A DNA stretch of 64,000 nt, from positions 6,786 through 70,785 of the forward strand of contig JAAXHO010000284.1 of NCBI GenBank assembly GCA_012270795.1, read 5' to 3'. Of the stretch, positions 9,820 to 60,298 are shown piece after piece (positions within the stretch are counted from its first letter, which is position 1; the number at the start of each line of letters is the position of its first letter). This DNA comes from Candidatus Poribacteria bacterium. GTDB lineage: Bacteria; Poribacteria; WGA-4E; WGA-3G. The notes under the pieces were generated by a model. That model was not told the DNA's origin. It did no database searches and saw nothing but the letters and a program-made list of their open reading frames with translations. The position numbers were made by a program, and so were the translations under genes.

Positions 9820-9870
9820 GGTATTATAACATAGTTTCATTTTTGCCTTTACCAGTCACACAATGTTGTT

Positions 9871-10891: not shown

Positions 10892-10958
10892 GTCTATCTC
10901 TCCCTAAAACCCTAAAGAACTCTAAAACCAATACATCAACTGACTATTCATTTATATT

Positions 10959-11411: not shown

Positions 11412-11890
11412 GCCTGATGGGGTTTCATTAATGGTGTTAATGGCAACAAACCCGGAACTTTTGCTTCTAAAATTGACTGTCCTTCTATATCAATTAATCG
11501 TATTACCCGATATTTGAGTCTATATTCACAACCATACCTACTATACTCATAAAATCCTGGGTCATTTTTACCTGCCTGCGGATGTAGGTAAAGAACACTT
11601 GAATAGACATTTAACTGATATTCTCTGATGAGAAATCCATTATAACCCGCAATACGGAAAGGCATAGGCTCCTGACTGTCATAAGCCTGTACCTCATTAT
11701 GAAGTATTGCAACCTGATCTGGAAACTCTACTTTTATGGTACAATCAGTCTCACGCGATTTGAGTGTAACTTGTTCTGTTGACAAATTCTCTAACACTCT
11801 TACATCTTTATACCCGAGAATAAGTCCAGCAAAAGGTTCAGCATACTCAGTAGTCACATATTTGGTAACGTTGTCATAGTGTTGACTCAT
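11408..11890 (-). pseudogene. Rpn family (PD-(D/E)XK) putative transposase/nuclease, N-terminal part
   Basis: Begins MSQHYDNVTKYVTTEY and carries the Rpn/YadD-like nuclease core: an ADI-type strand replaced here by GLILGYKDVRVLE, then IKVEFPDQVAILHNEVQAYD with the E-x-Q catalytic pair, and the late strand LYLHPQAG. Family members promote recombination or are called putative transposases. The frame stops after PLMKPHQA at 11408, while the expected downstream sequence continues in the next frame from 11411 (see that entry). The ATG at 11890 lies exactly seven bases after a consensus -10 box, so the message is probably leaderless. Confidence 0.7.
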
Positions 11891-11897
11891 ATTGACA

Positions 11898-11927
11898 ATT
11901 ATACTCCAAATCTATGATTCCTGTCAA
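11898..11927 (-). promoter_or_regulatory. Consensus sigma-70 promoter of the Rpn gene
   Basis: Perfect TTGACA (11922-11927) and perfect TATAAT (11898-11903) on the minus strand with an 18-base spacer. The ATG at 11890 begins where transcription should start, leaving no room for a leader. Confidence 0.75.
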
Positions 11928-11951
11928 CGTTTTTGTCTTGAATAAATAACT

Positions 11952-13052: not shown

Positions 13053-13081
13053 CTGTTATTCAGTAGGAGCGAAATGTTGTC

Positions 13082-14083
13082 TTATACTGCAAAATCAAGG
13101 TGTTGTTCTCTGAAAACTTGACTCACAGACCTGTGTTGATGAACTCTTAAAATGGCTTCGGCAAGTAAGGGTGCAATTGAAAGCACTATTATTTTGCCAT
13201 CAAGACGTTTTTGTGCTGGTATTGGTATTGTATCAGTTGTGACTACTTCACGGATTGATGGATGACGGAGTCTTTCCAATGCTGGCCCCACGAGAACCGC
13301 ATGGGCAATACTAACATAAGCGGGTTTTGCCCCCGCTTCAGCTAATGCCTGAGCCTGTTGGAAAATACTACCACCTGTCGCTATTTCGTCATCAATAACA
13401 ATTGGTGTCTTATCCTTAACATCTCCAACAAGTTCAACGAATTCCACATCCTGACCATCTGCTCCGTTACGACGTTTGTGCATAATTGCCAACGGTAGAC
13501 GAAGTATTTTTGCATATTTTTCTGCAAGTTTTGCACGACCCACATCCGGTGCTACGATAACACCGTTTTCTATCTGTTTTTCACGAAAATAATTGGCTAA
13601 TGTTGTGAGGGCTGTGAGATGATCCATAGGTATATCAAAGAAACCTTGTATTTGTGGAACATGTAAGTCTATTGCCATGACACGACTTGCACCTGCGGTC
13701 GTCAAGAGATTCGCTACAAGCTTGGCACTTATCGGTTCACGCCCTGTTGTTTTATGGTCTTGTCGTGCATATCCGAAGTATGGAATAATCGCTGTAATCT
13801 GTCGTGCAGATGCACGCTTCATCGCATCAATTGTGATGAGTAATTCCATCAAATTTTCGTTAGCTGGTTCGCATGTCGGCTGAATTATATAAATATCAGT
13901 ACCACGAATACTTTCATCTATTTCCACCCGAGTTTCACTGTTGGGAAATGGTCCAATTGTAATTCTACCTAATTCAACACCCAGAATTGCTGCGATCTCT
14001 TTTGCTAATGCCGGATTTGCACGTCCAGCAAACAATCTGAAATCGGAGCGAACATGTCGGTCTTGGTCTATCAAAATGGACAT
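13082..14083 (-). CDS. prs: Ribose-phosphate pyrophosphokinase
   Basis: Makes PRPP from ribose 5-phosphate and ATP for nucleotide, histidine and tryptophan synthesis. The protein has the prokaryotic PRPP synthetase opening DFRLFAGRANPALAKEIA, the ATP loop region YFGYARQDHKT, the catalytic flexible loop VAPDVGRAKLAEKYAK, and the PRPP-binding loop VIDDEIATGGSI. The length of 333 residues is slightly longer than the usual 315. The ATG at 14083 follows AAGGAG by eight bases. It sits between gpmI upstream and a glycosyltransferase downstream; a 21-bp palindrome in the gpmI-prs gap may regulate or insulate it. Confidence 0.95.
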   Translation of the reverse strand: MSILIDQDRHVRSDFRLFAGRANPALAKEIAAILGVELGRITIGPFPNSETRVEIDESIRGTDIYIIQPTCEPANENLMELLITIDAMKRASARQITAIIPYFGYARQDHKTTGREPISAKLVANLLTTAGASRVMAIDLHVPQIQGFFDIPMDHLTALTTLANYFREKQIENGVIVAPDVGRAKLAEKYAKILRLPLAIMHKRRNGADGQDVEFVELVGDVKDKTPIVIDDEIATGGSIFQQAQALAEAGAKPAYVSIAHAVLVGPALERLRHPSIREVVTTDTIPIPAQKRLDGKIIVLSIAPLLAEAILRVHQHRSVSQVFREQHLDFAV

Positions 14084-14105
14084 ACCAAAATCTCCTTGTT
14101 ATGTT

Positions 14106-14126
14106 AATACCAACTCAGTTGGTATT
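14106..14126. promoter_or_regulatory. Perfect palindrome in the gpmI-prs gap
   Basis: AATACCAACT and its complement flank a single C, giving two 10-base arms. It lies 23 bases upstream of prs on the minus strand. There is no T run, so an operator is more likely than an intrinsic terminator; no regulator can be named. Confidence 0.45.
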
Positions 14127-14146
14127 GGGACAATTATAGGAACTAA

Positions 14147-15766
14147 CTATACTAAGGATTCACCTGTCATCTCAGTAGGTTGTTGTAAACCGAGAAGATG
14201 CAACATTGTCGGAGCAATATCAGCAAGACGACCACCAGTCCGTAGTTTCTTTCCCTTAAATAGTTCATCAACTACGATAAGATCAACATCATAAGTCGTA
14301 TGTGCAGTATGAATACCACCAGTTTCAGGGTCAATCATCTGTTCACAGTTCCCGTGATCTGCTGTGACGATGAGGGATCCACCTTTTTCTAACACGGCAT
14401 TAACTACTTCTCCAACTCCAACGTCAACTGTTTCTACAGCTTTAATTGCTGCAAATAAAGAACCAGTGTGACCTACCATATCACCATTCGCGTAGTTGAG
14501 CACCATGAGATCGTATTTTTCTGATGCAATTCGTCGCAACATTTCATCTGTAACGCCCGGTGCCGACATTTCCGGTTTCTGGTCATAAGTCGTGACATCA
14601 CGTGGAGATGGAATGATTTGACGGTCTTCACCCACATAAGGTGCATCTCGGTAATCATTGAAAAAGAAGGTAACATGTGGGAATTTTTCTGTTTCTGCAC
14701 AACGGAATTGAGTCAATCCTAATTCACTGACGTAAGCCCCAAGTGTATTCAGCATTTTCGGTGGTTTTGTAACTGCTGCTTCTACAGGTAAATTCTGTTC
14801 ATATTCAGTCATCGTTACAAATTTAACGCTCATTTTAGAATTCCGTTTAAAACCCATTAAACGTGAAATACCGTCTTTACCCTCTGCTTGATATGGAAAT
14901 GTATCCAAGCAGAATGCTTTGGTGAGTTCTCTGGGTCTATCACCCCTAAAGTTGTAGAATATAACAGCATCACCATCACATATTCTTGGGAGTGCATGGC
15001 CTTGACTGTCAACGACAACTGAAGGTCTAATAAATTCATCTCCTTTACGATTATCATCATCTGGGTTTTTGTAATAATCACTATAGGCTTGCTTTGCAGT
15101 GCAAACCAGTGTTCCTACACCTTCGGTTAATAACCGATATGCAGTCTCAACACGTTCCCATCGGTCATCACGATCCATTGCATAAAATCTACCGATAACA
15201 GAGGCAATCTGTCCAATACCGATTTCTCTTGTTTTTTCTTCTATTTTTTCACAAAACTTAATCCCAAGATCAGGCTGACAATCGCGACCATCGCTGAAAT
15301 TATGTATCAATACCTGTTCTTTCTCCAATCCACTGTTTTTCGCCAGAGTGAGTAACCCAAATAGATGTTCAAGTGAACTGTGAACACCCGCATCACTCGC
15401 TAAACCCATCAAGTGTAAGTTTGTTCGGTTGTTTTTGACATGAGTAATAGCATTTAAAAGCACATCGTTCCGATAAAATTCACCGGAACGAATCATTGTG
15501 CTGATACGAAGAAGCTCTTGGTTGACTATTCGACCTGCTCCTATATTTTGATGTCCAACTTCACTATTGCCAATTACACCTGGGGGTAAACCGACATCTT
15601 CACCAGAAGTGTGAATTAAGGTATGTGGATAATTTTCTCGCAACCAGTTATCTACAGGTGTTTTTGCCAAATGAACAGCGTTAGACTTCTGATATTCAGG
15701 ATACGGATTGCTGCCCCATCCATCCCGGATAATGAGAACGACAGGGCGTTTATGTAGGCTTGTCAT
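14147..15766 (-). CDS. gpmI: 2,3-bisphosphoglycerate-independent phosphoglycerate mutase
   Basis: Interconverts 3- and 2-phosphoglycerate in glycolysis using two manganese ions and a phosphoserine intermediate. The N-terminal metal strand VVLIIRDGWG, the nucleophile serine in VIGNSEVGHQNIGAGR, the transferase-domain NFSDGRD and YAMDRDDRWERV motifs, and the C-terminal VLNYANGDMVGHTG and TADHGNCEQM metal ligands are all in place. The length of 539 residues is within range for the family (about 510-550). AAGGA precedes the ATG at 15766. The gene begins ten bases after the end of the LamG gene, so the two are likely co-transcribed although functionally unrelated. Confidence 0.95.
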   Translation of the reverse strand: MTSLHKRPVVLIIRDGWGSNPYPEYQKSNAVHLAKTPVDNWLRENYPHTLIHTSGEDVGLPPGVIGNSEVGHQNIGAGRIVNQELLRISTMIRSGEFYRNDVLLNAITHVKNNRTNLHLMGLASDAGVHSSLEHLFGLLTLAKNSGLEKEQVLIHNFSDGRDCQPDLGIKFCEKIEEKTREIGIGQIASVIGRFYAMDRDDRWERVETAYRLLTEGVGTLVCTAKQAYSDYYKNPDDDNRKGDEFIRPSVVVDSQGHALPRICDGDAVIFYNFRGDRPRELTKAFCLDTFPYQAEGKDGISRLMGFKRNSKMSVKFVTMTEYEQNLPVEAAVTKPPKMLNTLGAYVSELGLTQFRCAETEKFPHVTFFFNDYRDAPYVGEDRQIIPSPRDVTTYDQKPEMSAPGVTDEMLRRIASEKYDLMVLNYANGDMVGHTGSLFAAIKAVETVDVGVGEVVNAVLEKGGSLIVTADHGNCEQMIDPETGGIHTAHTTYDVDLIVVDELFKGKKLRTGGRLADIAPTMLHLLGLQQPTEMTGESLV

Positions 15767-15775
15767 TTATATTCC

Positions 15776-16522
15776 TTATAGACCTTTTAGTTTCCCCCAT
15801 GTAATAGCAAGTTTTCCTTGAGGAACAACATCCTGCGGGGTTTCCATGACTCTCTGGATGTTTGCTTCTGTTAACACCTTATTGTAAAGTCGCACCTCAT
15901 CAATTTTCCCTGGAAAGAAATCTGTTGCACGCCCGTAGTCATCACCACCTATCCACAACTCTAAATTTGATGGTGTAATCGGTGTATTATTCGGAGCTTC
16001 ACCTTCAAATTTGCCATTTACATATACCCTCAATGTACTCCCATCAAATGTTCCAGCGAAGTGATACCAATTCCCTATTTTCCAATCAGTCGTTTTTGAT
16101 TCAGCAAAGTTATTGGTCGGTTTTACGAGAAAATCTATTGCTGTTTCATTGTTGAAATCAAAGATCACGAAAATAGAATCATTTTTTACCATCAATCGTC
16201 GCCGCGTCAGGTCATCATTCGGACTGAACCATGCCATTAGGGTTATATTCTCTTCTATATCTAAGGCATCGTTATCCTCAACGGCAACATAGTCATCTAC
16301 ACCGTCGAACTCAAGCGCAGAACCGAATTTCCCTGCAACCCATTTGGGTGCTCCTTCAAATCTTCCATCATGTCCATTTCCAGTAACATCTCTTGCGGTA
16401 TTACCTGATTCTTCATCAAACGGCCAAAATGCAACTAAACCGTCTTCCGCTACATTGGCATCAACGAAACTTGAAACAACAAGCAGCAAACATAGTGATA
16501 ATAAAAAGGTAACTTTAAACAT
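15776..16522 (-). CDS. Secreted LamG/concanavalin-like domain protein
   Basis: A signal peptide (MFKVTFLLSLCLLLVVSSF followed by VDA-N cleavage region, about 22 residues) precedes a single LamG-like jelly roll. The domain shows the usual landmarks: GLVAFWPFDEESGNTARDVTGNGHDG, ALEFDGVDDYV, TLMAWFSP, NWYHFAGTFDGSTLRVYVNGK and GKIDEVRLYNKVLTEANI. Such domains bind carbohydrate or protein outside the cell and are multiplied in Poribacteria and Planctomycetes. No catalytic domain or anchor follows, so the 248-residue product is probably periplasmic or extracellular. GGAGGAG five bases before the ATG at 16522 is a strong ribosome binding site. A TATAAT-like box lies in the AT-rich 270 bases upstream, but no convincing -35 was found. 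Confidence 0.88.
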   Translation of the reverse strand: MFKVTFLLSLCLLLVVSSFVDANVAEDGLVAFWPFDEESGNTARDVTGNGHDGRFEGAPKWVAGKFGSALEFDGVDDYVAVEDNDALDIEENITLMAWFSPNDDLTRRRLMVKNDSIFVIFDFNNETAIDFLVKPTNNFAESKTTDWKIGNWYHFAGTFDGSTLRVYVNGKFEGEAPNNTPITPSNLELWIGGDDYGRATDFFPGKIDEVRLYNKVLTEANIQRVMETPQDVVPQGKLAITWGKLKGL

Positions 16523-16795
16523 TTCAACTCCTCCATTAGATTATGTAATTATTTAGATTTTATCTTGAGGTCTTGTTAATATTATATCATGAAGTGCTGT
16601 TTAGATGGGAATTAAAAATGCGGAATTTGTTAGGATTTTATGAATAGGTAATTTCAGAGTTTTTAAAGAAAATAAAAAAATAGTAAATCAGGAAATGGTT
16701 ATGAGCTTATTCTGTGTATGGGTTTATGAGAGATCGAGACGAGATATGATATGGTTTTGAACAACTCTGAAAATTGGTAAGTCGTTTATTAATGA

Positions 16796-18517
16796 CTAAC
16801 GTTTAGATTCTTCATAAACGGATCTTAAGAAGTCAACTCCTGCCTTTCCAAATCGATTGCAAATTTCATTAGCAATATTCTTATACCCTTTTTTGTATAG
16901 AATTCGAACGGTTTCTTCAACTTCGTTTTTTTGCGTATGCCCTAAAAGCCACATTTCACGCGTAGGAATTTCCAGATAAATTTTCCCAACTTTTTCAGGG
17001 GTTGTCAACACATGCCTCTGCAAAGCCTCAATAACGCGTGATAAAGTAAAAGCGTACCCCGGAACCTTGTCAAGGTAATTCATTGATACTTTTATCCAAG
17101 CGAGCACCTCATCATCTATTTCATCAATTAGTCCTAACCACATGGATAGAGGACTTAAAACTGCCTGACATTCCTTTTCTTCGGTGCGTTGTGAAAGCAC
17201 TTCAAACAACACACGCCACGCTGGCATAACTTTCGCCTTCACTTTCTCGGATAGGCTATCCTTGCGGCGAAAGAAAAAATAGACTAAACCTGAAAGCAGA
17301 TTTGGGTTATCATTATGTATCAACTGATAAATAAGACTGCTTTTATCATTTAAGCTTTCGCAGTCTTCTATCCAACCCGTACAGATATGCTTAACAAGTT
17401 TATCCAATACCTCAGCGTCAGCAAAATGGGTATTCAACGCTTTCTGATAGTGGCCCTGTGCCTTAAGTAGAGAATAAAATTCCTCGTGAACTCGCGAATG
17501 TATCAAATATCCTGAAAAAGCGGCTTGCCAGTGATCTTCGTCATGCAGCGGGAAGATACGATCTATATTGCCAACGACCCACTCTTTATCAAGATATGAT
17601 AGATATGGTAAGTAAAACCCAAGCGTATAAGAAAATTCAAGTGATGGTTCAACGTTCCTATCTAACCTTTTAGTGAAATCTGCTTTGATGGATTGTGGCC
17701 ATCTGCTTTCTTCATGTTTATCTTCGTTTGTACGAGCGAACCTTAAAGCATAATTTATCATTGCGGAAAACACTTTTCCTCTATCGGAATTCAACACATC
17801 GGAAGGAAGATTATTGAGGGTTGACACACTTTGTTGCGCGTGCTCCACAAGAATCAATAGAATTTTCTCAGCATGAGGCAAAAATTGTGTATCAAATGCA
17901 TGTTTATCACTTTTTGTTCCCTCTGAAATTAAATCTGCTGCACAGGAAAAAAACCAATTCCTATAGTTAAAGCCCGTTTCGTATTGTTCAGTCCAAAATT
18001 GTTCGGATGAGAAGGTCTGATATATGAATTGCAGCAGTGCTGCCCAATCAAATTCTTTTCCGTCTCGCCAAGCACTGTAGAAACCTTGTAGTAGTGAAGA
18101 TAGGTATAAGTTACTAACATCTTGGAAGGGCAGGAGATTATCCGAAAACCGTTGAGGGGACGCTTCCACACATTTTGCTAACGTATCTGCAAGTCCTTGA
18201 CCTTCCAGGTCAGGCAAACCGATAACTTTTGTTTCTTTATAGGCATTTAGATAAGCAGCGATCTGAGTATTTGACATCTTAGAAAGTTCATTAACTGTCA
18301 GTGGTCTAATAGGACCGATTGCCCCTGACTTTGGCATAATTTCAGAATTTTCAGTATTTTCTGTGCAAAGACGATCATATTTTTCGTAAGCATCAATAAT
18401 TTTTTCATTGCCGGTTTTCAAGAGCGTAGAGAGCCATTTTCGCCTGCTGTACGCGACAGCTTTTGCGTGCCCTTCATCATTCTCAGTTGGCGTTAGTATT
18501 GGGTTGATTCTATCCAT
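16796..18517 (-). CDS. Unknown helical protein, possibly the C-terminal half of a split gene
   Basis: A 573-residue protein that I do not recognise. It is predicted almost wholly alpha-helical with no signal peptide, membrane segment or obvious catalytic motif; VLNSDRGKVFSAMINYALRFAR near residue 245 and RRKWLSTLL near 27 are the most distinctive stretches. It overlaps the preceding 546-residue gene by 25 bases with no good ribosome binding site. Adding one A near 18500 would read WIESNPILTPTEND and fuse the two into one protein of about 1115 residues. A long helical-repeat scaffold, as found at the C terminus of STAND-like ATPases, is one possibility, but no NTPase domain is present. Confidence 0.55.
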   Translation of the reverse strand: MDRINPILTPTENDEGHAKAVAYSRRKWLSTLLKTGNEKIIDAYEKYDRLCTENTENSEIMPKSGAIGPIRPLTVNELSKMSNTQIAAYLNAYKETKVIGLPDLEGQGLADTLAKCVEASPQRFSDNLLPFQDVSNLYLSSLLQGFYSAWRDGKEFDWAALLQFIYQTFSSEQFWTEQYETGFNYRNWFFSCAADLISEGTKSDKHAFDTQFLPHAEKILLILVEHAQQSVSTLNNLPSDVLNSDRGKVFSAMINYALRFARTNEDKHEESRWPQSIKADFTKRLDRNVEPSLEFSYTLGFYLPYLSYLDKEWVVGNIDRIFPLHDEDHWQAAFSGYLIHSRVHEEFYSLLKAQGHYQKALNTHFADAEVLDKLVKHICTGWIEDCESLNDKSSLIYQLIHNDNPNLLSGLVYFFFRRKDSLSEKVKAKVMPAWRVLFEVLSQRTEEKECQAVLSPLSMWLGLIDEIDDEVLAWIKVSMNYLDKVPGYAFTLSRVIEALQRHVLTTPEKVGKIYLEIPTREMWLLGHTQKNEVEETVRILYKKGYKNIANEICNRFGKAGVDFLRSVYEESKR

Positions 18518-20133
18518 TGTAATATTTGTTCCATTTCATCTTCATTAAATGTATGGCTGTTGACTTGAATTAATTGGGATATTTCGGGTTCTAACTCAAC
18601 CTCATCAAGCGGATTACCTTCCCACTTCCAAAATAGGCGTTTCAATTCGCTGTAATGGTCCGTAATCGTCTTGACTGCAATCCGTTTGATGATCGTATGT
18701 GGTTCTTTCAATAAACTTTGAATTGTTTCTGTAATACTTACAGGTTCAGCGGATTGAAGGATACTACTAATAAAACTTACAATGAGTTCACTATAATCTG
18801 CACGTGAGAGACGGGAAAGATCGCTCTCAGCAGGATGTATAAAGTGAAACACAGAGGAATCTTTTGCAGCAAGTGCTCGGACCTGTGTGAGAGCAATCTG
18901 TAATGCCTCAACACCACATAAATTCGCGATGGTTTGTCCATATATCTTGAGGGCATCCTCAAGCCAATGATCATCCATTATAGGACGGATTCGCCCGTCA
19001 ACGAATCTAACTTCAAGCATTATTGCAAGTAGTTCAAGAGTTAACTCTTGTTTGCCTCCATCAAGAAGCTTAGGTAAAATTGTCTGACCTATTTCCTGAT
19101 CCATCAGACCGTATTTCTGGTTGGATTTCAATGCAGCTCCAATAAAAGTGATATGCTGAGGTTCTATCCTATCTATAGGAAGTGTGCCGATAATTTTGAC
19201 AGTTTCAAGATCAGTTCGGCCGTTATCAATCCGTTCCCTACTTTCGTCTGTAATAGCATTGACAATGTCCAAAAGGATATCAACGGGGCACTCTGGATGA
19301 ATAGAAATCTTCACTACATATTCCAGGGCATGCCAACGGGGACTATAGTAATATCCAGATTGATCTGGCGATTCTTGAGGCATGGGATTCTGATCGGGAT
19401 CGAACCATCCATCTTCTTTTAAGGGTTCTAACCATGTTGGAAATTCAAGTTTTCTAAAAAAATAGGCGCGTCTTTCTTCAGATCCCAATAGATTGGGGAG
19501 GGTACTTCTTATTTCTCGTGTCGGTTCCTTATAAGTACGAATCCGATCCAGTCGGCTGAGGAGGTCAAGAAAACTACCTACTAAATTCAACAATATACCC
19601 TCAAATTCATACCAAAGAACTTCAAATTCTTCTCTAGCTCGAGTAACCCTCCAAGCCCCGTGGCGATGAGCAAACCGATGAAATTGGGTAGAAACATTTA
19701 TCCATCTGATAGCAATATTTACACGAACATCATCAGTAGAAAGTGAGACGAGGACATCATCAATGCCGAGTGCTGCTAAAATTGAAGCAATATGACCTTT
19801 ACGGTCTTTTAACTCATCATAGTCCCCTAACTCATTTAATACCTCTTTAGTGAGTTGCTTCTGTATCCGTTCTTTGGCTTCACCACTGGATAAAATATCT
19901 CGTAACCCCCCATCAATCTCTCGGGCAACATGAGTCAAAAGACTCGCCGCAGTTTCTAAGTCTTCGTTATCCAAAATCCTGATTCCATCCAGATAATAAG
20001 CAGCTACCTCAGGTCCAATAGAGTTCAGACTCTGATAAATCTCACGTTGTTGAGAAGTTAATTCTGGTAAACGATTGGGGGTATCAATCTGCACTTGCGA
20101 TGAGTCCTGTTTATCCTCAAACTCATCGTTCAA
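18493..20133 (-). CDS. Unknown helical protein, possibly the N-terminal half of a split gene
   Basis: A 546-residue acidic, helix-rich protein without recognised domain, signal or membrane segment. It starts at a TTG at 20133, supported by AAAGAGGTG seven bases before it; there is no better ATG nearby. It ends EDEMEQILQWIESTQY inside the start of the next gene (16796-18517), and a one-base insertion there would join the frames. A tryptophan/proline-rich segment near residues 235-270 (FPTWLEPLKEDGWFDPDQ) separates two helical blocks. It is divergent from the aldo/keto reductase gene, with 175 bases between them that hold an AT-rich promoter region. No function is proposed. Confidence 0.55.
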   Translation of the reverse strand: MNDEFEDKQDSSQVQIDTPNRLPELTSQQREIYQSLNSIGPEVAAYYLDGIRILDNEDLETAASLLTHVAREIDGGLRDILSSGEAKERIQKQLTKEVLNELGDYDELKDRKGHIASILAALGIDDVLVSLSTDDVRVNIAIRWINVSTQFHRFAHRHGAWRVTRAREEFEVLWYEFEGILLNLVGSFLDLLSRLDRIRTYKEPTREIRSTLPNLLGSEERRAYFFRKLEFPTWLEPLKEDGWFDPDQNPMPQESPDQSGYYYSPRWHALEYVVKISIHPECPVDILLDIVNAITDESRERIDNGRTDLETVKIIGTLPIDRIEPQHITFIGAALKSNQKYGLMDQEIGQTILPKLLDGGKQELTLELLAIMLEVRFVDGRIRPIMDDHWLEDALKIYGQTIANLCGVEALQIALTQVRALAAKDSSVFHFIHPAESDLSRLSRADYSELIVSFISSILQSAEPVSITETIQSLLKEPHTIIKRIAVKTITDHYSELKRLFWKWEGNPLDEVELEPEISQLIQVNSHTFNEDEMEQILQWIESTQY

Positions 20134-50765: not shown

Positions 50766-51378
50766 TTGTTACACCGGGGACAATAATACGTAGATTATTA
50801 GATTTTGAGCTGCGTTTTGGAAAATAGACTCTAAAAATAGATCTGTGCTTTGGCATAATGTTGGTTTTTTTTAAGTCTTCGGTTGGCAAAACTGCATGAT
50901 CTCCCTGCACTCGGATAGTCTTATCATATCGGAAAACTTCAGCAGCGAATTCGGGAGGTAACTTCGGTTTTTTCTTCACATAAAATGATTCTTGGGATTT
51001 ATCTATCTGTTTTGTAATGTTCCCAGATTGGTCAAGCATCTGACAATCTTCCTTTTTGTAACTAATCCAATGATTAGTTTTGTTGTATAAGAGAATTGCA
51101 AAGGCATCAATATTTTTTACATCATTTAAAGGTACTGCTATTGCGACGATTCCATTTTTTTCATAAATTACTGCACCGGATTGTGGTGTAATTGTTGCAT
51201 CTGGATCAAAAACCGGGACTTTAATCTCTGGTCGGAAAAGATCGTTCATGAAACCGCCAAATTTACCACATCCGGACAAAGATAGAGAGATCATAAACAG
51301 GGCTGAAAATAGTAAGGTATTTCTCCAAATAATAGTTGTAATGTTAAGGAAAGTATTCAATCTACCGAAAACCACCAT
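50710..51378 (-). CDS. Putative lipoprotein, unknown function
   Basis: A 222-residue protein with a hydrophobic stretch ending in a lipobox, LLFSALFMISLSLSGC, so C37 should be lipidated. The mature part is a single beta-rich domain (ATITPQSGAVIYEKNGIVAIAVP, FAILLYNKTNHWISYK, NLRIIVPGV) without a named family. It resembles small outer-membrane lipoproteins with an Ig-like fold. GGAGG lies 12 bases before the ATG at 51378. The gene overlaps the NHL lipoprotein and follows the sugar-kinase locus on the same strand. Confidence 0.6.
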   Translation of the reverse strand: MVVFGRLNTFLNITTIIWRNTLLFSALFMISLSLSGCGKFGGFMNDLFRPEIKVPVFDPDATITPQSGAVIYEKNGIVAIAVPLNDVKNIDAFAILLYNKTNHWISYKKEDCQMLDQSGNITKQIDKSQESFYVKKKPKLPPEFAAEVFRYDKTIRVQGDHAVLPTEDLKKTNIMPKHRSIFRVYFPKRSSKSNNLRIIVPGVTSEFNNQQSTFVFKFRVQR

Positions 51379-51402
51379 TTATTTTTTTGTCCTCCATTTT
51401 AC

Positions 51403-52251
51403 TTAATGTATGTTATATGCGAGCATAGCAGCACCGATGAGTCCTGCATCATTACCCAATTTTGCGGGAACTATTTTCATTTGGCTGGGTATGCTCATTG
51501 CGCGTTTTCTAAATTCTTCTCTGATATGCTGAAAGAGGAGTTTTTCTCCTGCTCCTGCAATTCCCCCTCCGATAATTGCTATTTCGGAGTTTAGGATGTG
51601 TGCGATTGATGTTAATGCAACCCCAATGTGTTTTCCTGTTTCAGCAAATATTTCTTTTGCCAGTTTGTCTCCTGCTTCCGCAGCTTCTGCGATCTGTTTG
51701 GGTGTCAATACGTCTGGATTTAGACACGAGTTTTGTCCTGATGCTAACTTTTGGCGTGTGCGTTGTACAATATGTCTTGCCCCTGCATAAGCTTCAAGAC
51801 ATCCTCTATTACCACACCCGCATTTGCGTCCGTTTGGTTGTACGATGGTATGTCGTAATTCCCCTGCAGTATTCCAGCTGCCATAGTATACTTTTCGGTT
51901 GATGACAATACCTCCACCGACACCTGTCCCAAGTGTCAAACCAATAACATTTTCATAACCGACTCCTGCGCCATGATGTAGTTCACCTAACACCATAACA
52001 TTTACGTCGTTGTCTAAATAGAGCGGAATCTTTAGATTTCCAAGTTCAGCAGCGACATAATCCAGTAAGGGAATATCGGACCAGCCGGGAAAGTTCGGTG
52101 AAAAATGGATAATACCTGATTCTGCAAGGATAAGTCCTGGAGAACCTACACCGATACCGATTATATCCTTTAAGGATTGTTGATTTTGGTTAATTTTGGC
52201 TTGTGCCTGTGAATGTACCTGAAGAATCGTCTGTAGCAATACGTTTCGCAA
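51403..52251 (-). CDS. ROK family sugar kinase, C-terminal main part (frameshifted gene)
   Basis: Glucokinase-type ROK protein. GIGVGSPGLI, LYLDNDVNVMVLGE (catalytic Asp), LTLGTGVGGGIVINRKV, the zinc-binding cluster CGCGNRGCLEAYAG and AIIGGGIAGAGEKLL define the family. The ATP-binding start of the protein (DLGGTDIKAG) is missing here and lies in another frame at 52190-52375. The joint falls at the TTT run at 52244-52246 on the plus strand: one base fewer gives AIANVLLQTILQ and a single protein of about 320 residues. The present frame alone would lack the first phosphate loop and be inactive. Substrates in this family are glucose, N-acetylmannosamine or other hexoses. Confidence 0.75.
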   Translation of the reverse strand: MRNVLLQTILQVHSQAQAKINQNQQSLKDIIGIGVGSPGLILAESGIIHFSPNFPGWSDIPLLDYVAAELGNLKIPLYLDNDVNVMVLGELHHGAGVGYENVIGLTLGTGVGGGIVINRKVYYGSWNTAGELRHTIVQPNGRKCGCGNRGCLEAYAGARHIVQRTRQKLASGQNSCLNPDVLTPKQIAEAAEAGDKLAKEIFAETGKHIGVALTSIAHILNSEIAIIGGGIAGAGEKLLFQHIREEFRKRAMSIPSQMKIVPAKLGNDAGLIGAAMLAYNIH

Positions 52252-52375
52252 TTGCTTTTGCCCCTTCGTTCACATGTGTGGAAACGACTACGCGGTACAT
52301 TAGTTTACCATCAGACGACAACAATCCTGCTTTTATATCAGTTCCCCCAAGATCAATTCCAATACTGTATTTCAT
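52190..52375 (-). pseudogene. ROK family sugar kinase, N-terminal part
   Basis: The 61-residue frame MKYSIGIDLGGTDIKAGLLSS carries the ROK phosphate-binding loop DLGGTDIK and continues to KAIAKRI, after which it diverges into unlikely sequence (SSGTFTGTSQN) and stops. It overlaps the main frame at 51403-52251, which supplies the rest of the kinase. Confidence 0.75.
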
Positions 52376-52450
52376 GTTTTATGTTTATTGCTGTTTAATG
52401 TCTACTGTTAGAACCTCTACTGTAATTAATGGATGCTTGCTATTAAACTC

Positions 52451-53701
52451 TTAACTTTGAGAAATCCAATTTATTCTTGCCCCGTCTCCTACATTGCATA
52501 CATAGATATCAGGTTTGATTCCGGTTTGTTTTGTATATTCTCTCATAACATTTGTCCGCAATTCGTCAACAACTTCAGTTCTGACTAAGTTCACTGTACA
52601 TCCACCGAACCCTGCTCCTGTCATTCTTGAACCAAGGACGCCATTGATATTTTGTGCAATTTCAGTTAGCATGTTTAATTCGTCACAACTGACTTCATAT
52701 AGATCACGTAGACCTGCGTGTGAAGCATTCATGAGCATGCCAAATGTTTCTATATCACTTTTTGAAAGGGCATCAACTGCGTTGAGTACTCTTGTGTTCT
52801 CCTCAACGACATACCTACACCTCTTTTGTGTTATTTCTGGTAATTCTACTTCATATTTTTTGAATTCATCCAGTGTGACATCTCGCAGTGAGGTGATATT
52901 AGGTAGCCATTTTTTCAAGATTTGTACTCCATTTTCGCATTCAGCGCGTCGTTTATTATATTCGGATGCAGCAAGTTCGCGCTTCACATTCGTATTACAT
53001 ATTACAATCTGCAAGTTAGTTAGATTCAGTGGAACTTGTTTGTAATCTAAAGCTCGGCAATCTAAGAATAATGCATGATCTGCTTTTCCCAATAACGATA
53101 TAGATTGGTCCATTATACCACAGTTGACACCAGCAAATTCATTCTCTGCCCGTTGACACAGTGCAGCTAATTTCATCAGTGGAATTTCAATCAATTCTAT
53201 CTTTCCAAAATTTCTGTTGATTGTGTTCGAAATTGCCAATCCACTTGCAGCTAAGAATGCATAAGATGATGCGACCTCAAGTGCGGCAGATGAACTCAGT
53301 CCTGCACTTATTGGGACATCTCCTGTAATTACAGCGGACAAACCGTTCATTACATGTCTAGTGTCATGCAAAACTAGTTCTTGTAAATAGTGTGCAACGC
53401 CTTTTATATACTTTGCCCATTGCGGTGTGTCATCCTTATCAATATGGTCCAAACTAAAGGTACATTCCTCCCTCATATCCACTGCGTGTAGCTGCACTTT
53501 CCGGTCAGATCGTCTTTGTACAGCAATATGGATATATTTGTCAATTGCGACTGGAAACACAAAACCGTCATTGTAATCTGTATGTTCACCGATTAAGTTG
53601 ACTCTCCCCGGTGCGGAAGCAATAAATTCAGGTTCATTACCATAACGTTTTGTAAATTCTGAATTTAATCTCTCAATAGAATTTGAAATTTTTTGGTTCA
53701 T
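52451..53701 (-). CDS. galK: Galactokinase
   Basis: Phosphorylates galactose to galactose 1-phosphate in the Leloir pathway. The GHMP motifs are complete: PGRVNLIGEHTDYNDGFVFP (galactokinase signature), GLSSSAALEVASS (ATP loop), CGIMDQSISLLG (catalytic Asp) and SRMTGAGFGGCTVNLV (motif 3). The length of 416 residues is close to the usual 380-400. It is followed on the same strand by the ROK kinase, making a sugar-kinase pair; galT and galE are not in the window. No strong ribosome binding site precedes the ATG at 53701. Confidence 0.95.
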   Translation of the reverse strand: MNQKISNSIERLNSEFTKRYGNEPEFIASAPGRVNLIGEHTDYNDGFVFPVAIDKYIHIAVQRRSDRKVQLHAVDMREECTFSLDHIDKDDTPQWAKYIKGVAHYLQELVLHDTRHVMNGLSAVITGDVPISAGLSSSAALEVASSYAFLAASGLAISNTINRNFGKIELIEIPLMKLAALCQRAENEFAGVNCGIMDQSISLLGKADHALFLDCRALDYKQVPLNLTNLQIVICNTNVKRELAASEYNKRRAECENGVQILKKWLPNITSLRDVTLDEFKKYEVELPEITQKRCRYVVEENTRVLNAVDALSKSDIETFGMLMNASHAGLRDLYEVSCDELNMLTEIAQNINGVLGSRMTGAGFGGCTVNLVRTEVVDELRTNVMREYTKQTGIKPDIYVCNVGDGARINWISQS

Positions 53702-53770
53702 AAGTTTACTTCAGTAGATGGAAACATAAGGTGAGATCAATGTCATAATCACCTTTATATCACCGTTTTT

Positions 53771-54523
53771 TTAAGATGCAGCAAAAAAACTTAGCAATCG
53801 TGCTAAAATTGTGTGTAATTCGGGACGTGGAACATAGCAATCCACACTAATATCAGGGGTTAAATTTCTGTTTTCCTCTGGCAGGAGTTGTTCTTCTGGA
53901 GCATGTAGCGCGGGTTGCGGTTTGATCCGAGATATGTTGTCTGGAAGTGATGCACATTCTGCAATTACAATTTCACCCACTGGTAGATATGAAGTCAGTT
54001 TTTCTACATCTGTTTCTGTTAAGACAGTTAGGTGTGGAATGGCTGCCTGTGATAAACGGTCTAAACGTAATAACAATGGAATAATATCCGAAAATGTGCA
54101 TTCAGTTTCAATATCATTGACTGGAAAAACGGTGAGTAATGGAATAGTTTTCTCAATAGCACATTCAATTGACGCAGAAAACACTTTCAAATGCTGCTGT
54201 TTCAAGGTGGCATAAGAGGATAGAATAAACAGGCTGACAGAATATTCCGCAATATTTTCCTCAACAGCAAACGCATCATATTCACTCACATCATGACGAA
54301 TAATCTGATTTGATTCAGTTTCTGAATTATCTGTGATAGTATTGACATCAATAAGGAGTTTTAGTCTATTTTCAATTGTCAAAGGAAATAGTTCTTTGCA
54401 TTTTGGACAGATAAAATCGTTCCGTTCTAATTCACGGTGAAAAGATACCTCACCACATTTTGGACACTTATGCCATAAACTACCACTTTCTTCAATGTTA
54501 TTTGTGTTTCGTACGGTTTCCAT
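53771..54523 (-). CDS. Degenerate AccD-like protein (zinc ribbon plus decayed carboxyltransferase fold)
   Basis: 250 residues. The N terminus LWHKCPKCGEVSFHRELERNDFICPKCK is the four-cysteine zinc ribbon of the acetyl-CoA carboxylase beta subunit, and the following ENRLKLLIDVNT matches the linker in AccD. The rest keeps the length and a recognisable ending (CYVPRPELHTILARLLSFF versus the AccD RRELRETLARLL), but the glycine-rich acyl-CoA and oxyanion motifs of the crotonase fold are gone; the equivalent region reads SLFILSSYATLKQQH. It is therefore unlikely to be catalytic. It could be a regulatory or RNA-binding relic of AccD. It lies between galK and the partner-switching cluster. Confidence 0.65.
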   Translation of the reverse strand: METVRNTNNIEESGSLWHKCPKCGEVSFHRELERNDFICPKCKELFPLTIENRLKLLIDVNTITDNSETESNQIIRHDVSEYDAFAVEENIAEYSVSLFILSSYATLKQQHLKVFSASIECAIEKTIPLLTVFPVNDIETECTFSDIIPLLLRLDRLSQAAIPHLTVLTETDVEKLTSYLPVGEIVIAECASLPDNISRIKPQPALHAPEEQLLPEENRNLTPDISVDCYVPRPELHTILARLLSFFAAS

Positions 54524-54586
54524 ATTCCATCACTAATTTTGTTAACATATTTTTAATAGGAATTTGCATTATTGCGGAGATATGTG

Positions 54587-54937
54587 TTACGTAGTTTGAA
54601 AACTTGCTAACGCCTCTGCTTCTGTATCGTATCGGTCAAAAATAGTCACAAGTTTTGCCATAATAATAAGACTTCTGATATTCCCACCTATATTGAGTAG
54701 TACTATTCTTCCCATGTTACGTCTGATGGAAGCGTAGGCAGCGACAATCACGCCTAAGCCGGAACTATCCATCATTTGTACACGTTCCAAATTTAATATC
54801 AAAAAGACTTGTTCTCCATCCGCTTCTCGAATTAGGTTATCAATGATATTTTTTAATCCAATTGTATTTGGACCGACGAGGTTGCCTTCAATATCTAAAA
54901 TAATTATATTGTCGTTATGTCGAAGGTTTACTTGCAT
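54587..54937 (-). CDS. STAS anti-sigma factor antagonist
   Basis: A 116-residue SpoIIAA/RsbV-type protein. The STAS fold is clear: IIILDIEGNLVGPNTIGLKNII, LILNLERVQMMDSSGLGVIVAAY with the phosphorylatable serine S58 or S59, then GRIVLLNIGGNI and LVTIFDRYDTEAEAL. Unphosphorylated, it would bind the RsbW-type kinase encoded next to it (55192) and free the partner regulator. AAAGGAG five bases before the ATG supports the start. A palindrome at 55065-55090 and an 86-bp inverted-repeat element lie in the gap before it. Confidence 0.9.
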   Translation of the reverse strand: MQVNLRHNDNIIILDIEGNLVGPNTIGLKNIIDNLIREADGEQVFLILNLERVQMMDSSGLGVIVAAYASIRRNMGRIVLLNIGGNIRSLIIMAKLVTIFDRYDTEAEALASFQTT

Positions 54938-54955
54938 AAAAACTCCTTTCAGCGT

Positions 54956-55041
54956 ATCTCATAAATGCAATTTTGTCCAAATTTACCGGATCACGTGTCC
55001 TGTAAATTGGGGTTAGAAACCCCTCCTACGATTTATGAGAT
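54956..55041. repeat. 86-bp palindromic element with ATCTCATAAAT ends
   Basis: Perfect 11-bp terminal inverted repeats at 54956-54966 and 55031-55041. Internally AATTTACCGGA/TCCTGTAAATT form a second imperfect inverted repeat and GGGGTTAGAAACCCC a third. It ends 19 bases before the STAS start codon, so it would lie in the leader. It shares the CCTCCTAC word with the other palindromic elements. Confidence 0.65.
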
Positions 55042-55064
55042 AGGTTGTTCTTAACAAACACATT

Positions 55065-55090
55065 TTTTGTGAACAGTACTGTTCACAAAA
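55065..55090. promoter_or_regulatory. Perfect 26-bp palindrome (GAACAGT/ACTGTTC core)
   Basis: TTTTGTGAACAGT joined directly to its complement, between the RsbW-type gene and the STAS gene. There is no T run on either strand, so it is more like an operator than a terminator. The core resembles GAAC-N-GTTC sites bound by LexA-like repressors, but the spacing differs. Confidence 0.6.
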
Positions 55091-55191
55091 GATATGCGTT
55101 GATTATTCTACAAATCTATCGTGTGCAACATCTTCTCACATTCTTACCAGTTAATTCACAGTTGTTAGCGATAAGGATAAAATAATTGGAT

Positions 55192-55605
55192 TTACCTATA
55201 TTTTACCATCTTTATGATGGTTCCTTTGGCTTCGTATTCAACTTCATCCATACAGGCTTCCATCAGGAATAGTCCCCGTCCACTACTTTTCAGTAGATTT
55301 TCAGGGTCGAGTGGATTAGCAACTTCTTGTCGTTCAAATCCTGGTCCTTCATCAGTAATAACTATGGTAAGTTTTTCATCGTCAATAAGAAATTCAAAAG
55401 TAGCGTTTTTATCGGTATCTTCTTTATTACCGTGTTTGATTGCGTTAGTGCCTGCTTCAATGACTGCGAGGTTAACATGTTCCTGCACTTCTTCATCGAA
55501 TTTCATTTCTTTAAGAATATCACTAATGACAGTATCAAGCAGATAAATCAACTGCATTGTGCTTGGGAGAGAAAGGAAGATTTTCAGTTGTTTTTTCTCA
55601 CCCAC
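55192..55605 (-). CDS. Anti-sigma regulatory factor / serine kinase (RsbW type)
   Basis: A GHKL (HATPase_c_2) protein of 137 residues. The N box is NLAVIEAGTNAIKHGN (catalytic Glu and Asn), the G1 box ITDEGPGFE and the G2 box SSGRGLFLM. It would phosphorylate the STAS serine and hold a partner regulator inactive. The GTG start at 55605 has AAAGGAG eight bases upstream. It sits between the receiver-PP2C phosphatase and the STAS gene in one minus-strand cluster, the standard partner-switching order. The classic partner, a SigB-type sigma factor, is not encoded here; the ECF fusions upstream are a different family. Confidence 0.9.
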   Translation of the reverse strand: MGEKKQLKIFLSLPSTMQLIYLLDTVISDILKEMKFDEEVQEHVNLAVIEAGTNAIKHGNKEDTDKNATFEFLIDDEKLTIVITDEGPGFERQEVANPLDPENLLKSSGRGLFLMEACMDEVEYEAKGTIIKMVKYR

Positions 55606-55746
55606 GTGTTAGGCTCCTTTCTTGTATACGCAAAATATCGCGCAGAATATATTAGCAAAGTTCTAAATTTACCAGAATGACATTAAAAACAATTTTTGTT
55701 TACATCATTTGTGTTATGGTGCTTTTTGTTTTTAACTTAGCGTTGA

Positions 55747-56988
55747 CTAAACCTCATTGCGTTTAATAACAACAACTGCGCGGTCATCCTTGAGTTGAGT
55801 TGTTCCGCTGTGTTCAAAAAGTGTTTTTTGTAGGTCATTACAAATTGAATCCGCAGACAACTTTAGTTTGTTTGAGAGATAATCAATTAATCGTTCTTCT
55901 CCAAAGAAATCGTTTGGTTTTTGCCCCTCGGTTTCGGTTACACCGTCAGTATAAAGTATGAGCACATCTCCAGGGGAAATAGTACAAGTTTCATAAGAAA
56001 AAGTTGCAATATCGAACACGCCAATTAACATTCCGCCAGTTTCAAGCAAATGAACTTCGCTGTTAGTCTGTAAAGTTTTATCGGAATTATCTGTTTTTTG
56101 TATGAAATGGATTGGGGGACAGTGACCACCGTTTGAATAGGTGAATTTTCCAGTTTCTAATTCTAAAATTCCGTAAACCATAGTTGTGAATTGTTCAATA
56201 TCTGTATTGTGGAATAGTAATGTATTAATACGTTTTAGGACAGTTGCGGGGGAATCTTCCTCGTTACTCAGCAACCGCGATGCAGTCTGAATCATAACCA
56301 TCAATAGTGCGGCAGGAATACCGTGTCCTTTTACATCACCTAATACAATACCGAGTCGTTTATCATTGAGAGGGATGAAGTCGTAGAAGTCTCCTGAAAC
56401 TGATGTTGAGCTGCGGAAATAGGTTGCAAAGTCGTATCCTTCATAAGTAGGCGGTTTTTCGGGTAGTAACTTAAGTTGTATTTCGGCAGCGGCTTGCAGA
56501 TGTGAACCGAGTTCAGCCACTCCTTCTTCACTAAAACTGTCTCCCATTGCGTTGATGAGTGGATTGATGTATTTTACAGGCCGAGTTCGTCCCAAGACTG
56601 CATTGATTCGGGCAGTTACCTCTCTTAGGTCAAAAGGTTTTGTGATATAATCATCTCCGCCAAATTCCAAACCTTTCAGTTTATCTTCAGTCTGCGACTT
56701 TGCTGTCAACCACAGAACGGGAATTGCACGTGTATCAGTATCCTCCTTTAATCGCTTTATAACTTCTAACCCATCCATCTGTGGCATCATGACATCAAGC
56801 AAAATCAGGTCAGGTTGTTCTGCCTTCGCATTTTGAAGTCCAAGGGGCCCCTCATTTGCGGTGATGACATTGAATCCGTCTGAAGTTAAGCTCATTTCGA
56901 GCAAAGCGAGTATATCAGGATCATCATCAATGACTAATATGGTTTCAGTTGATGTAGTAGAATCGGATACGTAAATTGTTTCGGACAT
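55747..56988 (-). CDS. Response regulator with PP2C/SpoIIE phosphatase output
   Basis: Receiver domain at residues 15-135 (acidic D21-D23, phospho-acceptor D65 in LILLDVMMPQMDG, Lys in YITKPFD), a short helical linker (about 150-185), and a PP2C-type phosphatase from about 190 to the end. The phosphatase motifs are SVSGDFYDF, GDVKGHGIPAALLM and LILYTDGVTE (metal ligands). It dephosphorylates the STAS anti-anti-sigma protein when the receiver is phosphorylated. The histidine kinase gene at 57773 is transcribed toward it and is a likely source of the phosphoryl group. This is the RsbU/RsbP role with a two-component input. Confidence 0.92.
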   Translation of the reverse strand: MSETIYVSDSTTSTETILVIDDDPDILALLEMSLTSDGFNVITANEGPLGLQNAKAEQPDLILLDVMMPQMDGLEVIKRLKEDTDTRAIPVLWLTAKSQTEDKLKGLEFGGDDYITKPFDLREVTARINAVLGRTRPVKYINPLINAMGDSFSEEGVAELGSHLQAAAEIQLKLLPEKPPTYEGYDFATYFRSSTSVSGDFYDFIPLNDKRLGIVLGDVKGHGIPAALLMVMIQTASRLLSNEEDSPATVLKRINTLLFHNTDIEQFTTMVYGILELETGKFTYSNGGHCPPIHFIQKTDNSDKTLQTNSEVHLLETGGMLIGVFDIATFSYETCTISPGDVLILYTDGVTETEGQKPNDFFGEERLIDYLSNKLKLSADSICNDLQKTLFEHSGTTQLKDDRAVVVIKRNEV

Positions 56989-57065
56989 ATTTTTGCCTTA
57001 AGTTTTCAAGCCAGAAATTTGGTTGAAGTTATAGTTCGTTATTGCGGTTTCCTTTCGTTAGAGCT

Positions 57066-57659
57066 CTATTGTTGCAGGGCAGCCTTTTCCCGCACGTGCC
57101 AAATAGGATCCTGAAGTAATAGCTGCCTTATACGCTCAATGAATATTGTGTCTTTTGAGGTAATAGCCATCTCAAATGCAGCTTGTCTTATGTAAGGGTC
57201 CTGATGTTGGCAGAAACGGTTAGTGATTTCTTTTGCGTCATTTGGAGAAAGGCGTACCAAGCTGAGGAGGGCTCGCCGCTTGCAGTAGTCATCTGGATCT
57301 TGCATCCCTTTTTTTAGGAGGTTTTCCGCCTTCTGACCGGCGCAGCTAAGCACATCGTACACTTGCCATCGCGTGCTTGAGTATTCCGATTTTGTCAGTA
57401 AACACAACACGTCCCAACATAGATCTATGTGGGTTCTTGCGTAATCCGCAAGATGTTCTCCTTCATCTGAAATGGCCCAGCATTTGTCAATATACTGGAT
57501 AGCCTTCCGGTTTAGAGATTGCTGGGTCATTTCGTAAATAGCGGCATCCATTAAAAGCTTCCACTCAGGAAAATCCTCTTGCCAACCATCATCGTTCTGG
57601 TCTGCCGTAATCGCTCACTCTTCCCAATCTTTGTATCTTTTTTCAAGATTGCTTGCCAT
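57066..57659 (-). pseudogene. HEAT-repeat protein with an in-frame TGA at codon 15
   Basis: GGAGG lies six bases before an ATG at 57659, which opens MASNLEKRYKDWEE and then hits TGA (57615-57617). The same frame continues without further stops as AITADQNDDGWQEDFPEWKLLMDAAIYEMTQQ into 161 residues of HEAT-like helices (KAIQYIDKCWAI, LLSLVRLSPNDAKEI, YIRQAAFEMAITSK). The good ribosome binding site and uninterrupted frame suggest one gene of 197 residues with a nonsense mutation, or translation from the internal ATG at 57551. HEAT proteins are protein-binding scaffolds; between a histidine kinase and its phosphatase it may have been a scaffold. TGA is an ordinary stop elsewhere in the window. 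Confidence 0.6.
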
Positions 57660-57772
57660 TACATTCCTCCTATTGGCTGGGGCATACATACTTCCATTTT
57701 GTAGCAATCCAGTTTGTGTTCTATGTATGCACACACAAACTAGGAGTTTATGTTACTATGTTGCAACTTGAG

Positions 57773-60298
57773 TTAAGATAATAACGGAATCCAGAATTGA
57801 AAGTTGCAACCTTTGTCATTATCACCAACATCGACCCAGATTTTTCCTTTATGTGCTTCAACAAATCCCTGTGCGATTGACAGTCCTAATCCAGTTCCGC
57901 CCTGTTCTCTTGTTTGAATATTGCTAAGTTGTCTGAATTTGTCAAAGACATTTTCTCGTTCTTCAGCTGGGATTCCCGGTCCTGAGTCAATTACTTCAAC
58001 GTGAATTCCATCATTTTCGTTTATATCATCAGTTTTTTCTTCGTCCCTCGGATATTTTTTACTTGTGATTCTAACCTTGACATAACCATTTTCTGGCGTG
58101 AATTTAATTGCGTTTCCTATAAGATTAGTGAATATCTGGCCAATATATTCTGCGTCTCCATTAGGTTGGGTTAAATCTGGTTCTGTATTATACTCTAAAT
58201 CTATAGATTTTTCGTCTGCCTGTGGTTTGAGTTCCTCAATTCTTTGTTGTCCTATCTCTATGATGTCCACGGGTTCAAGATTCATTACAATGCGACCTGC
58301 TTCTATGCGCGAAATATCAAGCAAATCGTTTATCATTTTTGCGAGTCGTTCTGATTGTCGATGGGCTCTAATTAGGCTCTGTTTTTGAACATCATTGAGT
58401 GGGCCTACCTTTCCATTAAGTATAAGAGAAATGAATCCAATGATTGAGGTTAATGGCGTTCTTAATTCATGTGAGACAAGTGCGACAAAATCGGATTTCA
58501 TTTGGTCGATTTCGTGTTGTTTCGTAATATCATCGAAAACATAGACAGTTCCTGCCATATTCTTATCATCATCGGCTAATGATTCGTCTTGTGTTGTAGT
58601 ACTAATTGAAGTAAACTGACTTGTCACAACACGTAGCACACGGTTTTCACCTTCTTCATCTAAAACGGTTGCTCGTGCATCCGTTTCTTGCGTATTTGCT
58701 GATATTTTAAGGTTGGTTTCCCGCAATAGGTCTGTGAAGCGGTCTGGGAAATCTGAGGCATCACTAATATTTAGCAATTGTTTTGCAGCTGGGTTAAAGT
58801 AAAGGATTCGGTCTTGCCTATCAACAACGATTAGTCCTTCCCCGAGGCAATCGACTATTGTAGTCATCTGCTGTTCAGCATTGATGAGTTTCTCAACGGC
58901 GATTTTTAGGTTGCGGTGCATGTCGTTGAATTCTTGAGCCAACATACCGACTTCGTTCTTGCTGTCGATAGATATAAGATTTTCCTCATCGTTTTGGAAC
59001 CATGGCATATTTGCGATTTGTCTTCGGACTTGATCGGAATCTTGTTGAACAACTTCATTTGCCTCTTGCCCGATACGTTTTGCGGTTTGTGCAAGTTGCA
59101 TAACAGGTTGTGAAATCCGCTTTGCGGCTACATAGGCGACTGGAATTACGATGACCGAAGATAGGATGGTAACCAATAAGACGTACTGATTCAGTTTTGC
59201 GACTCCTGCGTAAGCTTCAGAATTTGGATATGAAACAAACATTATCCAGTTACTGAAATTTGGGTTAGTTTTCCATTCTAATCTACTTTCAGGTAGATTG
59301 TTTTCGATCGGTCTATTTTCTTGCCTATTTCCTCGTCTTCCACGTCTTGTCCTTGTTCTTGCCCATCCATATACTCGTGATTCACTGAATCGATCGGTTT
59401 CTCCCTCTGCTTCATATCCATGGTATTTTCCTTTTGTTCCTTTTTTTGCTTCAATAATTGCTCTTGCTGCAGCGTTTTCAGTTGCTATTGAATCACCAAT
59501 TTTATAGTTACTAATTGTTGAGACAGAAATGATTTCTCCCGCTTCATTCGTTAAAATAGTGTGTGCTTTTTCCATATCCGGTAGTAATTCAACGACATTA
59601 GAAAGTTCTGGCAGATAGAGGACGACCTTAATCACACCGACAACATTTTTTTCATTTCTTGAAGAAGGTCTTTGTCTTCCTGATCGGATGGGTAATGCAA
59701 CTAATAAACGATGTATACCACGTTCCGCATCATAGGTTATGTCTTCAGCATAATCCAAACCTAGTTCATTATTGATACTTTTGTTGCACCAAGTTTGGTC
59801 TTTTACATAATGAGGGGATATACTTGCTTGATCATATTTTAGTTCCTCTTGGTCCGAATAAAGGACATATCCGTCAACATTTGTAATGGTTAATTCACTT
59901 CTATTTCTATTTTGTCTTCCTCTAAACCTACTACTGATATTTGCTCTTATATCTCTAATACTGTGACTGGTTTCTAAACTTCTCCATACATCAGCATATA
60001 CTTGCATATTTTTGTCAGCGATGTTGGCTTTAATAACATACTTTTGAATTTCTGGGAGTTCCAATCGTATATTACGAATTTTGTCTGAAATTGCGCGATC
60101 AACTCTATAGAGTTTTTCTTGTGCAAGTATTACCAATCCTTCTCCAACACTACTTTTCAAAGCATTCCCACCCAATACTTTGATAGCGAGTGAAACGACA
60201 AATAAAGGCGTGAGTGAAACGAGCAGAAACAAAACGACTTGTTGCCCGCGTAATCCCATCTTAAACAAGGTTTTTTTTGCAGGTTTTATGTCTTGCAT
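57773..60298 (-). CDS. Sensor histidine kinase with large periplasmic sensor, HAMP and PAS
   Basis: 841 residues. Transmembrane helices at 21-42 and 371-392 bracket a periplasmic domain of about 325 residues with a dCache-like pattern (ELTITNVDGYVLYSDQ, ILTNEAGEIISVST). An insert at 311-330 is rich in arginine. HAMP follows (ISQPVMQLAQTAKRIG), then a PAS domain (about 472-595, DCLGEGLIVVDRQDRILYFN). HisKA has H610 in VSHELRTPLTS, and the ATPase domain has NLIGNAIKFTPENG, DSGPGIP and GGTGLGLSIAQ. The cluster order (STAS 60380, this kinase, HEAT, receiver-phosphatase, RsbW, STAS) indicates that it feeds the partner switch. The ligand is unknown. Confidence 0.93.
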   Translation of the reverse strand: MQDIKPAKKTLFKMGLRGQQVVLFLLVSLTPLFVVSLAIKVLGGNALKSSVGEGLVILAQEKLYRVDRAISDKIRNIRLELPEIQKYVIKANIADKNMQVYADVWRSLETSHSIRDIRANISSRFRGRQNRNRSELTITNVDGYVLYSDQEELKYDQASISPHYVKDQTWCNKSINNELGLDYAEDITYDAERGIHRLLVALPIRSGRQRPSSRNEKNVVGVIKVVLYLPELSNVVELLPDMEKAHTILTNEAGEIISVSTISNYKIGDSIATENAAARAIIEAKKGTKGKYHGYEAEGETDRFSESRVYGWARTRTRRGRRGNRQENRPIENNLPESRLEWKTNPNFSNWIMFVSYPNSEAYAGVAKLNQYVLLVTILSSVIVIPVAYVAAKRISQPVMQLAQTAKRIGQEANEVVQQDSDQVRRQIANMPWFQNDEENLISIDSKNEVGMLAQEFNDMHRNLKIAVEKLINAEQQMTTIVDCLGEGLIVVDRQDRILYFNPAAKQLLNISDASDFPDRFTDLLRETNLKISANTQETDARATVLDEEGENRVLRVVTSQFTSISTTTQDESLADDDKNMAGTVYVFDDITKQHEIDQMKSDFVALVSHELRTPLTSIIGFISLILNGKVGPLNDVQKQSLIRAHRQSERLAKMINDLLDISRIEAGRIVMNLEPVDIIEIGQQRIEELKPQADEKSIDLEYNTEPDLTQPNGDAEYIGQIFTNLIGNAIKFTPENGYVKVRITSKKYPRDEEKTDDINENDGIHVEVIDSGPGIPAEERENVFDKFRQLSNIQTREQGGTGLGLSIAQGFVEAHKGKIWVDVGDNDKGCNFQFWIPLLS

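Follow-up and report, generated by a model that had tools for sequence, protein, structure and literature searches.

Could a TGA codon lying 14 codons into an otherwise open HEAT-repeat gene be translated, or does it mark a gene that has just been switched off? The question arises in a 64,000-nucleotide stretch of contig JAAXHO010000284.1 (hereafter, the window) from the genome of a sponge-symbiont bacterium, Candidatus Poribacteria (GCA_012270795.1). Direct reading of the minus strand reveals a Shine–Dalgarno-like AGGAGG (57666..57671, running from 57671 to 57666) placed six bases 5' of an ATG at 57659–57657. The frame translated from this ATG passes through 14 codons, a TGA at 57617–57615 and 182 further sense codons to a TAG ending at 57066. 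The full ancestral frame (57066..57659, minus strand), delimited by translation, profile and Pfam matches, comprises 197 codons plus the final TAG and is broken at codon 15; the longest ORF that remains (57066..57551, minus strand; 161 aa) begins at an internal ATG, which encodes Met37 when the full frame is numbered. The sequence agrees exactly with the first-pass annotation, which had described the ribosome binding site, the ATG at 57659, the 14 codons, the TGA and the 182 open codons, and which had also placed the internal ATG correctly at 57551. The open frame is longer than expected by chance, a stop-free run of 183 codons occurring in 1 of 20,000 sequences generated by a first-order Markov model with matched composition. 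Translation of the frame revealed no second lesion besides the TGA.

The open part of the gene matches the Pfam family PF13646 (HEAT_2) at 35.6 bits against a cut-off of 27.7, in keeping with the earlier description of a HEAT gene, and it retains both Pfam HEAT matches (HEAT_2 and HEAT, PF02985). The predicted model of an intact homologue (seven sequences) is all helix, with a mean pLDDT of 90.2 and a pTM of 0.84. The gene thus resembles the HEAT-repeat proteins in its predicted all-helical solenoid and its above-cut-off matches to both families, but it differs from them in its first ~110 residues, including a Trp-rich N-terminus, which match no Pfam or NCBIfam model. In the predicted model, W15 falls in the first helix (residues 4–16) and Met37 falls within a later one (residues 33–44); a start at Met37 would cost the product its first helix as well as the Trp-rich N-terminus retained by every homologue. 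In the PDB, designed alphaRep and armadillo proteins come out best, each as a weak match, and the fold search returned nothing at E ≤ 0.001; at the level of predicted structure, these matches indicate a HEAT-like solenoid and nothing further. A PADLOC search gave a lone weak match to OloA (E 0.0046), which we set aside.

To what codon does the TGA correspond in related genes? Homologues were searched for in 59 related genomes, and a profile of seven intact homologues was then run against 84 genomes of the phylum. The seven full-length homologues, five from within the genus and two more distant, all come from Candidatus Poribacteria MAGs, were recovered again from a collection of named genomes and are 56–84% identical to the reference homologue; a short 33-residue profile match (genome G047) and a weak hit of 27% identity (G041) were not counted among them. 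The residue that homologues carry at codon 15 had been singled out by the first-pass annotation as the point to check, and the codon alignment gave Trp, encoded by TGG, in all seven. The W15 column is invariant and is flanked on either side by conserved residues, the invariant N-terminal positions being Y9, W12, W15, A16, A19, D20, G25, W26, Q27, D29, Y30, P31, W33 and L36. Compared with G013, the closest relative as judged by the surrounding genes, the window differs by one base across the 24 nt surrounding codon 15. Since TGG stands in every homologue and this single base separates the window from G013, the ancestral codon was TGG and the window genome shows one G-to-A change.

The same comparison settles where the gene begins. 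All seven homologues start at the window's upstream ATG or one or two codons beside it, and the stop, one base away from the homologues' sense codon, lies inside the ancestral frame and not 5' of the true start. The first-pass annotation had allowed that homologues might begin at the internal Met with nothing conserved upstream; they do not, since all of them extend upstream and carry conserved residues there, and the internal Met is ruled out as the true start. Furthermore, the profile of the seven homologues spans positions 1–197 of the window frame straight through the TGA (E = 4.1e-114, with "1 TGA" inside), and among its nine matches in the 84 phylum genomes the window's own genome is alone in having an internal stop. 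Of the options that the annotation had listed, the nonsense change is therefore supported by the homologues, an ancestral start at the internal ATG is removed, and readthrough has found no positive support. At the other end of the gene, the copies in G013 and G001 (loci L003 and L004) both run on past "WHV" into a C-terminus that is longer and of different sequence, and they seem to owe it to one shared frameshift.

Is UGA a stop codon in this organism? A genome profile search found prfB, encoding RF2, at 505 bits against a cut-off of 370. The 5' part of prfB holds CTTTGAC, reading GGGGGTATCTTTGAC, which we take to be the usual RF2 autoregulatory frameshift site with its own TGA. In the loci covering all 46 tRNA hits, there is a single tRNA-Trp gene, with anticodon CCA, a 5-bp anticodon stem, A9 and G24, and no tRNA-Trp with UCA; the sole TCA anticodon belongs to a tRNA-Sec. 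No internal stop was found in 62 ABC-domain matches or in 39 HEAT_2 matches in the genome, and 4 of the 39 window ORFs of at least 200 aa terminate in TGA.

Codon use was also compared with G013 over 5382 minus-strand codons (window positions 57–20,000 and 50,973–57,698). Of 58 Trp codons, 56 are kept as TGG; the other two are a GTG and the TGA studied here, and the whole comparison contains no further clean in-frame nonsense difference. The count was restricted to the minus strand, as counting both strands gave four TGA codons opposite TGG, three of them on the plus strand inside minus-strand genes. The other candidate stops were rejected: those seen against G016 (55611 and 60724) and G001 (55749 and 60724) fall either immediately 5' of a gene start in the window or on the stop codon of a window gene, and one seen against G013 at 11356 lies beyond a one-base frameshift. 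In that region (10959–11890), the window lacks one base that G013 has, and a gene of 302 aa is divided into two ORFs of 160 and 150 aa; at about 52,250, the window has one base more than G013, which disrupts the 5' part of a sugar-kinase-like gene.

These results show that UGA works as a stop in the genome. Genome-wide recoding of UGA as Trp is unlikely and is rejected on the strength of RF2, the canonical tRNA-Trp and the codon counts. The locus does resemble UGA-to-Trp reassignment (codes 4/25) and the UGA-reading tRNA-Trp variants described in PMC13092985, in that a TGA stands where relatives have TGG. The genome differs from these systems, however, in having RF2, a canonical tRNA-Trp, no tRNA-Trp with UCA and one TGA among 58 codons. 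UGA probably has a second meaning in the organism, as the genome probably makes selenoproteins: a tRNA-Sec scores 78.5 bits against a cut-off of 47 and lies directly beside a selB gene scoring 353 bits against 242 (locus L107, G000:C275, 2928–5057, minus strand).

How old is the change? Among the six genus sequences, the changes unique to the window comprise 9 synonymous, 11 non-synonymous and 1 stop, and those of the five genus homologues together comprise 31 synonymous and 35 non-synonymous (Fisher P = 1.0 against the window). In this weak test, no excess of amino-acid change was seen on the window branch; against the neutral expectation, P ranged from 0.014 to 0.07 with the transition bias, which is again a weak test. 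Relaxed constraint, which might have served as proof of a dead gene, was thus not seen at this modest power. The absence of an amino-acid excess speaks against the nonsense reading to the extent that a dead gene would accumulate such changes over time, and a gene that is still translated would give the same substitution pattern. From the substitutions, there looks to be no sign of long decay and the change looks recent; a recent nonsense change, an assembly error and a still-translated gene all fit the pattern.

The setting of the gene bears on how much its loss would matter. In the window, the HEAT gene lies between a histidine kinase upstream (57773..60298, minus strand; HAMP, PAS, HisKA and HATPase_c) and a response regulator with a SpoIIE-type phosphatase domain downstream (55747..56988, minus strand), both identified from the ORF list and domain matches. 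Past the regulator come a HATPase_c_2 protein and then a STAS protein, and on the far side of the kinase there is a further STAS protein. The regulator, as part of the widespread core, is present in 16 of 18 genus genomes, and the HEAT gene is carried by 6 of the 18. At 12 of the 16 regulator loci, the regulator follows the kinase directly, after 62–333 nt and with no HEAT gene in between; the HEAT gene is at the locus in the other 4, including G013, whose contig ends before the kinase. The earlier placement of the gene in a signalling cluster is therefore true of the window, but in the genus it extends to just 4 of the 16 genomes with the regulator. Elsewhere, the HEAT gene sits beside trypsin-like peptidase and TPR genes in G012 (L109, 6382–13297) and in G015 (L110, 8147–16064) is flanked by a TPR gene and by a sigma-factor/WD40 gene. 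The G015 stretch (L110) also has DNA similarity to the 30–42 kb region of the window.

The divergence of the gene is likewise out of step with that of its neighbours. At synonymous sites, the HEAT gene diverges by 0.48 from G013, 0.41 from G016 and 0.48 from G001, whereas the neighbouring genes diverge by 0.07–0.31, 0.82–1.75 and 0.77–2.89, respectively (a STAS2 match in G013, a paralogue at 27.5% identity, was left out). For its place, the HEAT gene is over-diverged against G013 and over-similar against G016 and G001, which indicates that it has its own history, and this history would be best explained by exchange between genomes. Judged by its patchy occurrence in the genus, the HEAT gene is accessory and dispensable.

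Could the TGA be absent from the organism altogether, being an error of base calling or of the consensus, or the allele of a minority strain, in a 298-contig metagenome assembly? The genome is a draft and its relatives are MAGs, and the two one-base frameshift differences from G013 (~11,411 and ~52,250) indicate that other errors are possible. However, the change is a clean substitution, unlike a homopolymer indel, and since it is the sole clean nonsense difference in 5382 codons, errors of this kind must be infrequent; we regard an artefact as unlikely, with a chance that still deserves to be taken seriously. It is improbable, to a greater degree, that re-initiation or internal initiation at ATG 57551 yields a shortened, 161-residue HEAT protein with some function retained. 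This ATG is in frame, 63 nt beyond the TGA; a weak GGAAG stands six bases 5' of it, and the open part of the gene retains both Pfam HEAT matches. Yet the N-terminal 36 residues are kept in all seven homologues, including the 14 invariant residues from Y9 to L36, and a start at Met37 would fall inside one predicted helix and forgo another. Moreover, the purine stretch 5' of Met37 encodes a conserved W-x-L-L and need not be a ribosome site.

Two further readings also keep some protein, and we consider both quite improbable. The TGA could be a standing low-expression state, in which leakage or re-initiation would yield a little HEAT protein beside the two-component/SpoIIE switch from a gene swapped between genomes; such a state is compatible with the locus, as the downstream frame is intact and without visible relaxation. 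The same intact frame would be expected if tRNA-Trp inserted Trp at the UGA at low efficiency, in a leaky or regulated manner, and restored the full protein. UGA is described as leaky, and in-frame stops are argued to be widespread and often short-lived in bacterial genes (PMC7918605). The tRNA-Trp of this genome, however, is without the three features named as UGA-favouring in PMC13092985 (a 4-bp anticodon stem, C9 or A24), and the TGA occurs in no relative and bears no mark of conserved recoding. Decoding of the codon as selenocysteine has next to no chance, despite the adjoining tRNA-Sec and selB: as the column is Trp in all seven homologues, with no Cys and no stop, there is no reason to expect selenocysteine there. 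Downstream, the sequence hardly differs from the one found in the TGG homologues, so the comparison gives no sign that an insertion element has been gained, and the UGA itself is paired in the energy fold.

We therefore favor, with a probability of roughly 0.6, the reading that an accessory HEAT gene in a single Poribacteria genome has recently acquired a nonsense substitution, TGG to TGA. We infer that the change is genuine in the organism, is recent and removes most of the product. In the proposed course of events, one G-to-A transition would have turned the invariant Trp codon 15 into a stop, translation from the intact ribosome binding site and ATG would end after 14 residues, and the gene would probably be off, or else reduced to the traces of product that leakage or re-initiation at Met37 might supply. 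With an ordinary RF2 and an ordinary tRNA-Trp, the simplest outcome to expect is that most of the product is lost. Altogether, the locus looks like a commonplace case of a dispensable gene that has been broken or misread, with no new decoding trick.

A search of the literature found nothing on premature stop codons in Poribacteria. Belinky et al. (PMC7918605) describe in-frame stops in bacterial genes as common, mostly short-lived and partly artefactual, and kept those common to at least two species to reduce artefacts. We place the window stop in this class, as it is a single-base sense-to-stop change in one lineage, in a conserved frame that is otherwise intact and shows no amino-acid excess after the stop; it differs in being seen in one genome, and the two-species filter would drop it. 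The case shows that homologues can settle what an in-frame TGA represents when the genome is a draft, and it carries little weight in itself. If the TGA were translated through, on the other hand, the locus would offer a testable case of a tolerated UGA in an uncultured symbiont with both RF2 and selenocysteine machinery.
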